In this document: positions 24,483 to 34,502 of the stretch, in pieces | Layout of the letters: each line of letters opens with the position of its first letter | How positions within the stretch are numbered: position 1 is the first letter of the stretch | Assembly: GCF_029267215.1 (NCBI RefSeq) | Contig: NZ_JARIDH010000030.1 | Location: 1-34,832, forward strand | DNA from: Clostridium sp. | Lineage (GTDB): Bacteria > Bacillota > Clostridia > Clostridiales > Clostridiaceae | DNA length: 34,832 nucleotides | Direction: 5' to 3' | The notes under the pieces: generated by a model | What the model saw: only the letters and a program-made list of their open reading frames with translations | The model's database searches: none | Told to the model about the DNA's origin: nothing | Program-made: the position numbers and the translations under genes

Positions 24483-24505
24483 AGGAGATGTCTAAGACAC
24501 CTCCT
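24483..24505 (-). terminator. Intrinsic terminator of codY
   Basis: A 10-bp stem (AGGAGGTGTC with GACATCTCCT, one G-U pair, loop TTA) starts one base after the codY stop. TTAATTTTT follows on the minus strand. It isolates codY from rpsB. Confidence 0.88.
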
Positions 24506-25425: not shown

Positions 25426-27528
25426 CTACTTTTCTGAACTATTTTCTTCTTCAGTTTTTTCTATTTTTTCTTCATGCTTACAATCTTTATTACTACATTG
25501 TAAGTACTCACCTTTACTCTTTGAATATCTCTTAACCATATATAAACCACAATCAGGACACTTCTTATTTGTTGGTTCATACCAACTTACAAAGTTACAT
25601 TCTGGATAATTGCTACATCCATAAAATCTATTTCCTTTTTTACTTCTCTTAACTAAAATTTTCCCTCCACATAAAGGACAGTTTGCATCAACCTCTTCTA
25701 CTATAGGTTTTGTATTCTGACACTCAGGATATCCAGGACAAGCTAAAAAATCTCCAAATCTACCATGTTTTATAACCATAAGTCTTCCACACTTATCACA
25801 TGGAACATCACTTACTTTATCTTCTATGATTACTTTTGATATTTCGCTCTCTGCCTTTTCTATATCCTTTTTAAGAGGAGTAAAGAATTCATCTACTATA
25901 TGAGTCCAACTTTCCTTACCTGCTTCTACATTATCAAGTTTAACTTCCATTTCAGCAGTAAAATCAGTATCGACTATTTGCTTAAAGTATGTTGAAACTA
26001 TATCATTTACTATAAAGCCTAATTCTGTAGGAATAAGAATTTTCTTCTCTCTATCTACATATTTTCTACTTATTAATGTTGATATAGTAGGAACATAAGT
26101 ACTTGGTCTTCCAATTCCTTTTTCTTCTAACAACTTAACAAAAGCAGCCTCTGAATATCTTGCTGGTGGTTGAGTGAAATGTTGTTTTCCTTCAATTGAA
26201 TCTTCTTTTAAAACTTCATTTTCTTCAAGTTCTGGTAAAAGAACTGACTCTTCCTCTTCACCTGATATATATTCATAAACTTTCATGAAACCATCAAATT
26301 TAATAGTAGATCCACTAGCTCTTAAAATATACTCTCCATTTTTAATCTCTAAGCTATTTGTGTTTAATATACATGTAGCCATTTGACTTGCAACGAATCT
26401 TTTCCATATTAAAGCATATAATTTATATTGATCATTACTTAAATTTTCCTTTGCAATTTCAGGTGTAATCTCAACATAAGTAGGTCTTATAGCTTCATGA
26501 GCATCTTGTATATTTTTCTTTCCTCTATATACTCTAGGCTCACTTGGAATATATTCTTCTCCATAATTTTCTTTTATGAAATTAAGAGCTTTTTCTTGAG
26601 CTTCATTTGATATACGTACAGAGTCTGTTCTCATATAAGTAATTAAACCAACAATTCCAAACTTTTTAACTTCAACCCCTTCATAAAGTTGTTGTGCTAC
26701 AGACATTGTTTTCTTTGTCATATAGTTTAACTTCTTACTTGCTTCTTGTTGAAGTGTACTTGTAGTAAATGGAGCTAAAGGATTTTTATTTTTTTCTCCT
26801 TTTTTAATTTTATTTACTACATATTCATTTTGCTTTAATTCTTCTATTATTAAATCTGCTTGTTCTTTATTTTTTATTTCAACTTTTTTCTTATTTTTAG
26901 TTGTTAATTTAACAGGAAATGATTTTCTTCCTTTTTTAAGTTTTACATCAACTGTCCAGTATTCTTCTGGATTAAACTTCTTAATTTCTTCTTCTCTATC
27001 ACATATAAGTTTTAAGGCAGCAGATTGAACTCTCCCTGCACTCAATCCCCATTTTACATTTCTCCAAAGAAGTGGACTTATCTCATATCCAACTAGTCTA
27101 TCTAAAATTCTTCTAGCTTGCTGCGCATCAACTAAGTTAGAATTGATTTTTCTAGGATTTTTTATAGAATTTTTAACAGCAGACTTTGTTATTTCATTAA
27201 ATTCTATTCTACAATTCTCTGATTCATCTATTTTAAGCACATTAGCTAAGTGCCAAGATATAGCTTCTCCTTCTCTATCAGGGTCAGTTGCAAGATATAT
27301 TTTATCGCTCTTTTTTGCTAATTTTCTTAATTTGCTTAAAAGCTCCCCTTTTCCTCTTATTGTTATATACTTTGGATTATATTCATTTTCTATATCAACG
27401 CCTAATTGACTTTTTGGCAAATCTCTTACATGTCCCATTGATGCTTCGACTACATAGTTTTTACCTAAATATTTTTCTATTGTTTTAGCCTTAGCTGGTG
27501 ACTCAACAATTACTAATTTTTGACCCAT
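25426..27528 (-). CDS. topA: DNA topoisomerase I (type IA)
   Basis: TopA relaxes negative supercoils by a 5'-phosphotyrosine strand-passage mechanism. The 700-residue protein starts MGQKLVIVESPAKAKTIEKYLG and has the TOPRIM acidic triad DPDREGEAISWHL (about 82-94). Catalytic Tyr298 lies in GLITYMRTDS. Three C-terminal four-cysteine zinc ribbons follow (CDKCG...CPGYPEC, CPLCGG...CSNYPEC, CPDCG...CSNKDC). Length and architecture are normal. It is the third gene of the comM-dprA-topA run. The start codon has no nearby ribosome site; the strong one lies upstream of a hairpin, suggesting structure-dependent initiation. Only a weak 6-bp hairpin (25396-25412) follows the gene, next to the codY promoter. 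Confidence 0.97.
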   Translation of the reverse strand: MGQKLVIVESPAKAKTIEKYLGKNYVVEASMGHVRDLPKSQLGVDIENEYNPKYITIRGKGELLSKLRKLAKKSDKIYLATDPDREGEAISWHLANVLKIDESENCRIEFNEITKSAVKNSIKNPRKINSNLVDAQQARRILDRLVGYEISPLLWRNVKWGLSAGRVQSAALKLICDREEEIKKFNPEEYWTVDVKLKKGRKSFPVKLTTKNKKKVEIKNKEQADLIIEELKQNEYVVNKIKKGEKNKNPLAPFTTSTLQQEASKKLNYMTKKTMSVAQQLYEGVEVKKFGIVGLITYMRTDSVRISNEAQEKALNFIKENYGEEYIPSEPRVYRGKKNIQDAHEAIRPTYVEITPEIAKENLSNDQYKLYALIWKRFVASQMATCILNTNSLEIKNGEYILRASGSTIKFDGFMKVYEYISGEEEESVLLPELEENEVLKEDSIEGKQHFTQPPARYSEAAFVKLLEEKGIGRPSTYVPTISTLISRKYVDREKKILIPTELGFIVNDIVSTYFKQIVDTDFTAEMEVKLDNVEAGKESWTHIVDEFFTPLKKDIEKAESEISKVIIEDKVSDVPCDKCGRLMVIKHGRFGDFLACPGYPECQNTKPIVEEVDANCPLCGGKILVKRSKKGNRFYGCSNYPECNFVSWYEPTNKKCPDCGLYMVKRYSKSKGEYLQCSNKDCKHEEKIEKTEEENSSEK

Positions 27529-27556
27529 CGTAAACTCTGAATTAATTCAGAGTGTT

Positions 27557-27565
27557 CACCCCCTC
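27557..27565 (-). promoter_or_regulatory. Distant Shine-Dalgarno of topA, separated from the start by a hairpin
   Basis: The minus strand carries GAGGGGGTG, followed by A. This matches the anti-Shine-Dalgarno with one G-U pair, but the topA ATG is 30 nt past the GGGGG core. A perfect 8-bp hairpin (arms ACTCTGAA and TTCAGAGT, loop TTAA, 27553-27534) sits exactly between them. Removing the hairpin leaves 10 nt. No ATG, GTG or TTG is in frame between the site and the start. Confidence 0.72.
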
Positions 27566-27571
27566 AAACTA

Positions 27572-28654
27572 TCATATTATTTTTGTATAATAATCTCCTG
27601 GTATAACTTCTATTTTATTTTCAAATTGCAATTCACATAATAACTCATATATGATGGATGTGTCAATATTTGTTACTCTTATAATATCATCTATATGCAT
27701 TATATTATTGTCTAATATCTTCAAAATAAGCTCATTAAATCCTGATTCTTCCTCTTTATCTCCATTTTTACTAATTTTATTTTCTTTTTTTACATTAAAT
27801 TTGATTGAGTTTAATAGATCACCTACATTTGTAAATATGCTAGCTCCATCTTTTATGAGATTATTACACCCTTTGCTTTCTGGTAAAAATATATCCCCAG
27901 GCACAGCAAAAACTTCTTTACCTTGATTCACTGCATAATTTGCAGTTATTAATGAGCCACTCTTTTCTCCAGCCTGAACAATTATAACCGCATCACTCAA
28001 TCCACTTATTATTCTATTTCTTCTTGGAAAATTGTATCTTAAAGGAGGTGTATCAGGGAAAAATTCACTTATTATACATCCATTTTTAATTATTTTCTTA
28101 TATAATTCTCTATTATAAACAGGATAATCTACATTTATTCCACAACCAAATACAGCAACATTATAAAAATTTCCCTCAATACATTTTTTATGCGCTTCAG
28201 TATCAACTCCAAAAGCCCCTCCGCTTATAATTCCTACTCCAAAACTTCCTAGACTGGAAGTTATTAATTTCGTGCATTTCTTACCATAATTATCACATTT
28301 TCTTGATCCAACTATAGCTATATTGGTGTTTTCTGCACTCTCCAAATCTCCTTTATAAAATAATATATATGGAGGTTCATCTATAAGCTTTAACCTTTTA
28401 GGATAATTTTCATCTAAATATGTTACTATTTTATAGTCTTTCTTATTTATATCATTAATTATTCGCTTATTCAAATCCATATCAATATCACAATTAAATT
28501 TACCCGCACATTTTAATCCACTTTCTTCTATATCCTTCCTATGTATATAAATATTTTCCTCATTTCCTAATTGATTTAAAAGTTCAACCTTTATATTATT
28601 TGAAACATTCAAATTTCCAAACCAAATTTTATAATTCAAATCAACTTCTTTCAT
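27572..28654 (-). CDS. dprA: DNA processing protein DprA (Smf)
   Basis: DprA binds incoming single-stranded DNA and loads RecA during transformation; it is also widespread in non-competent Firmicutes. The 360-residue protein has an N-terminal helical region (1-90). The Rossmann-type DprA core follows, with IAIVGSRKCDNYG, ISGGAFGVDTEAHK, FGCGINVDYP, SEFFPDTPPLRYNFPRRNRIISGLSDAVIIVQAGEKSGSLITA and VFAVPGDIF. A C-terminal winged-helix domain (about 305-360) is present. The loop usually written SGLARGID reads SGGAFGVD here. The start follows the comM stop with no gap, with AGGGAGATG as ribosome site. topA follows after 43 nt. Confidence 0.96.
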   Translation of the reverse strand: MKEVDLNYKIWFGNLNVSNNIKVELLNQLGNEENIYIHRKDIEESGLKCAGKFNCDIDMDLNKRIINDINKKDYKIVTYLDENYPKRLKLIDEPPYILFYKGDLESAENTNIAIVGSRKCDNYGKKCTKLITSSLGSFGVGIISGGAFGVDTEAHKKCIEGNFYNVAVFGCGINVDYPVYNRELYKKIIKNGCIISEFFPDTPPLRYNFPRRNRIISGLSDAVIIVQAGEKSGSLITANYAVNQGKEVFAVPGDIFLPESKGCNNLIKDGASIFTNVGDLLNSIKFNVKKENKISKNGDKEEESGFNELILKILDNNIMHIDDIIRVTNIDTSIIYELLCELQFENKIEVIPGDYYTKII

Positions 28655-34463: not shown

Positions 34464-34493
34464 ATTATACTACTTAATCAAATTAAGTAGATT

Positions 34494-34502
34494 CACCTCC
34501 CT
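34494..34502 (-). promoter_or_regulatory. Distant Shine-Dalgarno of khpA, separated from the start by a hairpin
   Basis: The minus strand reads GGGAGGTGA, a near-perfect match to the 16S 3' end, but the khpA ATG at 34463-34461 is 32 nt beyond the GGAGG core. A perfect 8-bp hairpin (arms CTACTTAA and TTAAGTAG, loop TTTGA, 34490-34470) fills the gap. Without the hairpin the spacing is 11 nt. An in-frame TAG falls in the hairpin, so no closer start is available. Confidence 0.75.

Follow-up and report, generated by a model that had tools for sequence, protein, structure and literature searches.

In bacteriophage T4, an RNA structure lying between the Shine-Dalgarno (SD) site and the AUG brings a far SD to working distance in genes 25 and 38, and the available part of the account in PMC3014915, which reports Nivinskas 1999 and Malys and Nivinskas 2009, gives a path shortened from 27 to 11 nt for gene 25 and from 22 to 5 nt for gene 38. 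According to the same part of PMC3014915, changes that weaken these structures lower initiation at both genes, and the occurrence of the gene 25 device is limited to a clade. For the split ribosome binding site of E. coli thrS, the accessible portion of PMC3936740 regards the structures as modules of the 5′ UTR that act as standby sites. Within the literature consulted, some of it available as excerpts, descriptions of structure in the spacer that separates SD and start codon were confined to phage T4. Small leader hairpins are also found in RNA thermometers such as ROSE and fourU, which hide the SD in a stem. A literature search, covering titles and abstract openings and mostly excluding subscription papers, returned no description of a spacer device of the T4 kind for Clostridium or for the genes considered here; within the literature searched, its clade-wide use in bacterial core genes thus looks new.

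The window analysed here (the whole stretch of DNA, 34,832 nucleotides from a Clostridium sp.) carries topA on its minus strand, where the leader reads GAGGGGGTGAAC-ACTCTGAA-TTAA-TTCAGAGT-TTACG-ATG. From the GGGGG core to the ATG the spacing is 30 nt, which on subtraction of the 20-nt hairpin leaves 10 nt unpaired, and the geometry that the first-pass annotation had given for this leader (SD, 8-bp stem, TTAA loop, 30-nt spacing and 10 unpaired nt) proved exact. Its statement that no in-frame ATG, GTG or TTG intervenes was also borne out for the stretch 4–14 nt past the core, and the in-frame ATT that it had pointed to (27546-27544) lies 12 nt past the core. The anti-SD of the genome is the standard GGATCACCTCCTTTCT, and GGGGGT is invariant in 31 aligned distal-SD topA leaders. 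The start of topA fits the protein: the N-terminus aligns from residue 3–4 with three of 13 solved topoisomerases I among the matches listed, the alignment beginning at residue 40 or later for the remainder of those 13, and the N-terminus MGQxLVIVESPAK is common to most relatives. By its relatives the genome belongs to Clostridium, the nearest TopA having 93% identity (Clostridium sp.) and that of C. tarantellae 81%. Coordinates are collected in Table 1.

Table 1. Leader features and genes of the window, with the further bridged leaders found in the genome scan listed under their own labels.
Feature	Position	Strand	Remarks
topA, DNA topoisomerase I, 700 aa	25426..27528	(-)	TIGR01051, 844.2 bits, cut-off 456.4
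topA start codon ATG	27526..27528	(-)	10 unpaired nt to SD core with hairpin folded
topA spacer hairpin, 8-bp stem ACTCTGAA/TTCAGAGT, TTAA loop	27534..27553	(-)	3′ arm with weak SD-like GAG
topA stem arms and loop	ACTCTGAA 27553-27546, TTAA 27545-27542, TTCAGAGT 27541-27534	(-)	perfect pairing
distal SD site GAGGGGGTG of topA	27557..27565	(-)	GGGGG core 27563-27559
dprA, gene upstream of topA	27572..28654	(-)	stop codon ends 6 nt before distal SD
khpA, KH-domain protein, 75 aa	34236..34463	(-)	NF001748, 142.2 bits, cut-off 106
khpA spacer hairpin CTACTTAAT/ATTAAGTAG, loop TTG	34470..34490	(-)	RNAfold
distal SD site AGGGAGGTGA of khpA	34493..34502	(-)	
hydF bridged leader	L232:11784	minus	genome scan
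DbpA-like helicase bridged leader	L095:7182	minus	genome scan
flavorubredoxin-like protein bridged leader	L215:16780	plus	genome scan
substrate-binding-like protein bridged leader	L240:426	plus	genome scan
unassigned-protein bridged leader	L112:12084	minus	genome scan

As in T4 genes 25 and 38, the topA leader thus combines a far SD, an intervening structure and a shortened path (30 to 10 nt in the window); measured against the part of the T4 account that was available, the Clostridium cases differ in concerning cellular core genes, several per genome, with spacers that are longer and more variable (23–52 nt), in the host, and in being known from sequence. With ROSE and fourU the leader shares the small hairpin, but here the main SD core lies outside it, and a classical RNA thermometer was rejected on the ground that the window hairpin leaves most of the GGGGG core outside the stem. 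Unlike the standby modules of E. coli thrS, as presented in the accessible portion of PMC3936740, the Clostridium hairpin sits between SD and AUG. Nor was a known Rfam element recognised, since the curated covariance models of Rfam gave no matches at gathering thresholds across the whole window.

Folded alone, the topA spacer reached −8.8 kcal/mol (z −5.5, none of 200 shuffles as stable), indicating stable structure between SD and AUG; by the genome-scan criteria for a hairpin, 3.5% of shuffles of the same spacer passed. The minimum-energy fold of a 101-nt context retains the hairpin, but this context as a whole is only moderately stable (z −1.90, 8 of 200 shuffles as stable), and some of the SD bases are there paired with coding sequence. 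When the SD was included in the folded stretch (27530-27559), the terminal G of the core, together with the TGA behind it, paired with the TTAC that precedes the ATG, adding four pairs to the topA stem across a two-base bulge; the foot of the hairpin may thus compete with SD binding.

Leaders of relatives were then compared. Eighty topA loci were fetched and their leaders read, which together with the window gave 60 usable leaders from 81 places; the others were skipped because the start codon was absent at residue 1, or because the place was near an end, on the other strand or unmatched. A strong SD stood at 26–49 nt in 38 of these leaders, all therefore more than 20 nt from the AUG, as is the SD of the window, and at 4–11 nt in 19, while three had none by score. 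For khpA, 32 places including the window divided into 26 with a far SD and six with a near one (spacing 7–8), and no SD spacing of 12–25 nt occurred among the topA and khpA leaders compared. The hairpin was present in all 38 distal-SD topA leaders and all 26 distal-SD khpA leaders. Across the 38 topA leaders the total distance averaged 33.9 nt (sd 5.1), with a remainder outside the hairpin of 10.1 nt (sd 1.6, range 7–14); across the 26 khpA leaders, the total was 26–52 nt (mean 37.6, sd 7.3) and the remainder 10.3 nt (sd 2.0, range 7–14). When distinct far leaders were set against dinucleotide shuffles (300 each), the hairpin criteria were passed by 33 of 33 topA leaders versus a shuffled mean of 3.0 (maximum 8) and by 23 of 23 khpA leaders versus 2.5 (maximum 7). 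The 75-aa KH-domain protein of the window is presumably khpA, the name of model NF001748 itself being KH domain-containing protein; its stem, put at 8 bp in the first-pass annotation, has 9 bp and a TTG loop by RNAfold.

The stem arms vary between species in both halves (for example ACTCTG/CAGAGT, ACCTCT/AGAGGT and TATCCT/AGGATA), as do loop sequences and stem lengths, so that it is pairing and distance that are conserved, not sequence. Because pairing of each arm with its own partner is 1.00 by construction, the informative value is that of swapped arms, which was 0.49 for topA, 0.54 for khpA, 0.54 for soj and 0.91 for ireB, whose arms are alike. The 3′ arms of the topA leaders were not aligned by MAFFT, and formal pair counting was thus restricted to ireB, where the outcome was modest: on three measures 12 of 500 shuffles were as high, the figures for the two further measures were 464 and 500 of 500, and one pair had changed on both sides.

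When 60 TopA proteins were placed on a tree, those with a far SD fell on one side of a single branch (SH-aLRT 91), corresponding to one change between far and near at topA (shuffled mean 18, none of 500 as low), and the khpA state likewise changes once on this tree. Five species, C. ljungdahlii, C. ragsdalei, C. pascui, C. caldaquaticum and C. acetireducens, combine a hairpin at topA with a plain site at khpA, and the device was thus not acquired jointly by both genes. Judging from the leaders compared, the ordinary near topA SD is possibly the ancestral state. Across 42 topA neighbourhoods from Clostridium (881 ORFs), 60 ORFs were flagged, of which 53 were topA (31) or khpA (22), one of each sitting at an internal codon; in 38 more distant neighbourhoods (682 ORFs) seven were flagged, none of them at a topA or khpA start. 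Five Clostridium leaders from just outside the bridged clade (L026, L028, L033, L034 and L035) have an ordinary topA SD 4–7 nt from the ATG.

A survey of 146 genomes of the family extended the topA comparison, the species overlapping in part with those of the 38 compared leaders. Matches to a pattern that places a far GGGGGTG ahead of ATGGG(Q or K) were obtained in 87 genomes, and among the 77 matches encoding MGQ a hairpin was found in 74, comprising 68 within the criteria and six with a longer stem that leave 4–5 nt by formal count; the three matches lacking one by the survey criteria were G101 and one each in G126 and G009. With the stricter pattern MGQxL(V/I)IVE, 74 of the 146 genomes matched the far-SD topA arrangement, and these were the same 74 hairpin leaders. 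A reversed control pattern gave no matches in the 146 genomes. The survey correlation of 0.90 (slope 0.98) refers to 62 distinct leaders that were pre-filtered on a remainder of 6–16 and are hence partly selected. Outside the 74, G035 carries a far SD upstream of a start that encodes MGK.

Recurrence within the genome was assessed over 1,695,793 of 2,789,873 bases (61%; 1453 ORFs of at least 70 codons), by scanning for ORFs that lack an ordinary SD and have a strong SD 20–60 nt away. The scan returned 29 far-SD ORFs, of which 13 were hairpin-bridged versus 2.6 expected from shuffled spacers (maximum 8, none of 200 as high), and under a stricter setting 8 of 11 were bridged versus 1.02 expected (maximum 4, none of 200 shuffle sets as high). 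An earlier, smaller scan (1,098,571 bases) gave a weaker result, with six bridged versus 1.65 expected (maximum 5); the criteria differed, the earlier scan allowing a remainder of 5–14 and a start offset of at most 180 and the later one 5–15 and at most 120, and soj missed the earlier scan by 1 nt. The enrichment, obtained in 61% of the genome, goes against the refutation that the first-pass annotation had set out (no excess over shuffled sequences) and upholds its view that this is a recurring device rather than chance. That view had been drawn from two cases in 35 kb; the device does recur, but this density is above the usual one of 13 in 1.70 million bases.

Six of the 13 hits (topA, khpA, soj, ireB, hydF and dbpA) were compared with relatives. 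Besides topA and khpA, the arrangement is conserved at soj/parA, with a far SD in 11 of 29 leaders, one of which (L164) is doubtful and resembles an ordinary near site, and at ireB, with a far SD in 11 of 30, some outgroup starts there being placed on the wrong codon (e.g. L256, L260 and L263). The total distance and remainder were 28–40 nt and 11.6 nt (sd 2.0) in the 11 far soj leaders, and 23–30 nt and 9.8 nt (sd 1.1) in the 11 far ireB leaders. Against 300 dinucleotide shuffles each, 10 of 11 soj leaders passed the hairpin criteria versus a mean of 1.6 (maximum 5), and 10 of 10 distinct ireB leaders versus 1.0 (maximum 4). For three of the 13 hits, ireB among them, the individual shuffle frequency is 0.245–0.425; ireB is supported by its conservation. 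The sister genome has an ordinary site at dbpA; the bridged hydF leader is common to the sister genome only.

Comparison between species demonstrates, at the level of sequence, the architecture, its conservation, the near-constant remainder and the recurrence at topA, khpA, soj/parA and ireB. The topA leader is very probably a hairpin-bridged ribosome binding site, in which structure would shorten the path from SD to AUG. An extended, strong SD, in most cases GGGGGTGA or GGAGGTGAA, would pair with the 30S subunit 23–52 nt from the AUG in the four conserved genes; the foot of the hairpin would join both sides of the folded spacer and leave ~10 nt between SD and AUG; and the AUG would reach the P site with the hairpin unmelted. 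By analogy with T4 genes 25 and 38, we infer that initiation is raised by the hairpin, which would remain folded while the ribosome is bound. The mean topA remainder of 10.1 nt compares with the 11 and 5 nt reported for T4. At ~10 nt the remainder slightly exceeds the near-site spacing, consistent with a ribosome that stays bound to the SD and gets to the AUG beyond the foot of the hairpin while the latter is folded.

The contents of the spacers bear on which start the SD serves. Across the four genes, not one of the 86 far leaders has an ATG, GTG or TTG in frame 4–14 nt past the SD. In-frame stops interrupt the stretch from SD to ATG in 29 of 38 topA leaders, 25 of 26 for khpA, 8 of 11 for soj and 6 of 11 for ireB, so that in most leaders the SD would have only the distant ATG to serve. 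Out-of-frame standard starts occur 4–14 nt past the SD in 11 of the 86 (topA 3/38, khpA 1/26, soj 4/11, ireB 3/11), and in these a short upstream frame is conceivable. When the leaders are folded with their surroundings, the SD core is free only in part, the median unpaired values being 0.44 for topA, 0.52 for khpA, 0.73 for soj and 0.54 for ireB, and the topA hairpin has a median pair probability of 0.71 (minimum 0.00). A temperature- or structure-dependent control of topA, for which the first-pass annotation had called the gene a sensible target, is so far a conjecture.

Another account of the topA leader would place the true site inside the hairpin, as a GGAG or GAG in the 3′ arm that is sequestered by the CTCC of the 5′ arm, with the distal GGGGGTG acting as a standby site or the 5′ arm switching between the distal SD and the 3′ arm. 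This we consider unlikely, if worth weighing. The SD-like GAG of the 3′ arm had not been pointed out in the first-pass annotation. At the conventional position all 38 topA leaders score at least 8 (GAG) and 31 of 38 at least 11 (GGAG), the plain-site topA relatives L026, L028 and L033 have GGAGGGG there, and pairing between the SD core and the 15 nt after it occurs in some topA leaders (median 0.13, maximum 0.79). The signal is not general, however: only 3 of 26 khpA leaders, 3 of 11 for soj and 1 of 11 for ireB reach a score of at least 11, and 11 of 26 khpA and 3 of 11 ireB leaders score 0. Among the 62 distinct topA leaders of the survey, that of G116 lacks any SD-like match and another four have a score of 7.7, with distal SD and hairpin kept; as these five fall below GAG, a proximal GAG is not the basis of the device. 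Pure sequestration, moreover, would not require that a distal SD and a structural distance be kept. A hidden proximal SD was therefore rejected as a general account and retained at topA as a possible extra. There the proximal site may contribute, the 3′ arm may be an old SD left in place after a new SD arose upstream, and a two-state switch is possible.

The remaining alternatives concern the flanking frames, the start codon and the DNA itself. Termination-reinitiation, by which ribosomes ending dprA or rpsP near the SD would move on to the AUG with the hairpin setting the coupling, fits the short gap after dprA (Table 1) and the 8 nt between the end of the frame upstream of khpA and the khpA SD; but in the one ireB leader examined upstream (L234), visual inspection placed the end of the preceding frame ~113 nt away from the SD. 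The device thus seems independent of a nearby upstream stop, a general dependence was rejected on this one leader, and we regard the explanation as very unlikely. That the hairpin is by happenstance a DNA-level palindrome, an operator or repeat element within the leader, appears highly improbable: stem and loop in the window do form a perfect 20-bp palindrome, yet it is unique in the genome with up to 3 mismatches allowed, and its counterparts in other species vary in the length and sequence of stem and loop, with pairing kept. An operator or repeat was rejected for want of a second genomic copy within 3 mismatches. Use of an upstream non-canonical start, the outcome that the first-pass annotation had said would overturn its reading, is scarcely credible. 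The ATT of the window is in frame and suitably near the core, but an open ATG, GTG, TTG, CTG, ATT, ATA or ATC lies 4–14 nt past the SD in only 3 of 38 topA leaders (the window included), 5 of 26 khpA, 1 of 11 soj and 2 of 11 ireB leaders, most of the others being blocked by the in-frame stops described above; such a start was rejected on these two grounds.

Core genes of a large bacterial group have retained the hairpin-bridged arrangement despite extensive sequence change, and the difference in its distribution between topA and khpA suggests that different genes gained it separately. The arrangement provides many natural replicates for studying ribosome initiation across a folded spacer, and start models in gene finding that require an SD within ~15 nt would probably misjudge these starts. 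A wider proposal, which we put forward as speculative and rather doubtful, is that in Clostridium sensu stricto folded-spacer initiation would be an ordinary, repeatedly invented mode of a small fixed core set (topA, khpA, soj and ireB, with a changing periphery), in which the foot of the hairpin would be a shared control point, a common melting factor or condition (helicase, RNA-binding protein, temperature or ions) would tune the genes jointly, and at topA pairing of the 5′ arm with the distal SD or with the proximal GGAG would form a two-state switch.

Elsewhere in the window, a terminator-like stem AGGAGGTGTC/GACATCTCCT (24483-24505) with a T-rich tail was observed directly past the end of the codY frame, and its 5′ arm resembles a strong SD.
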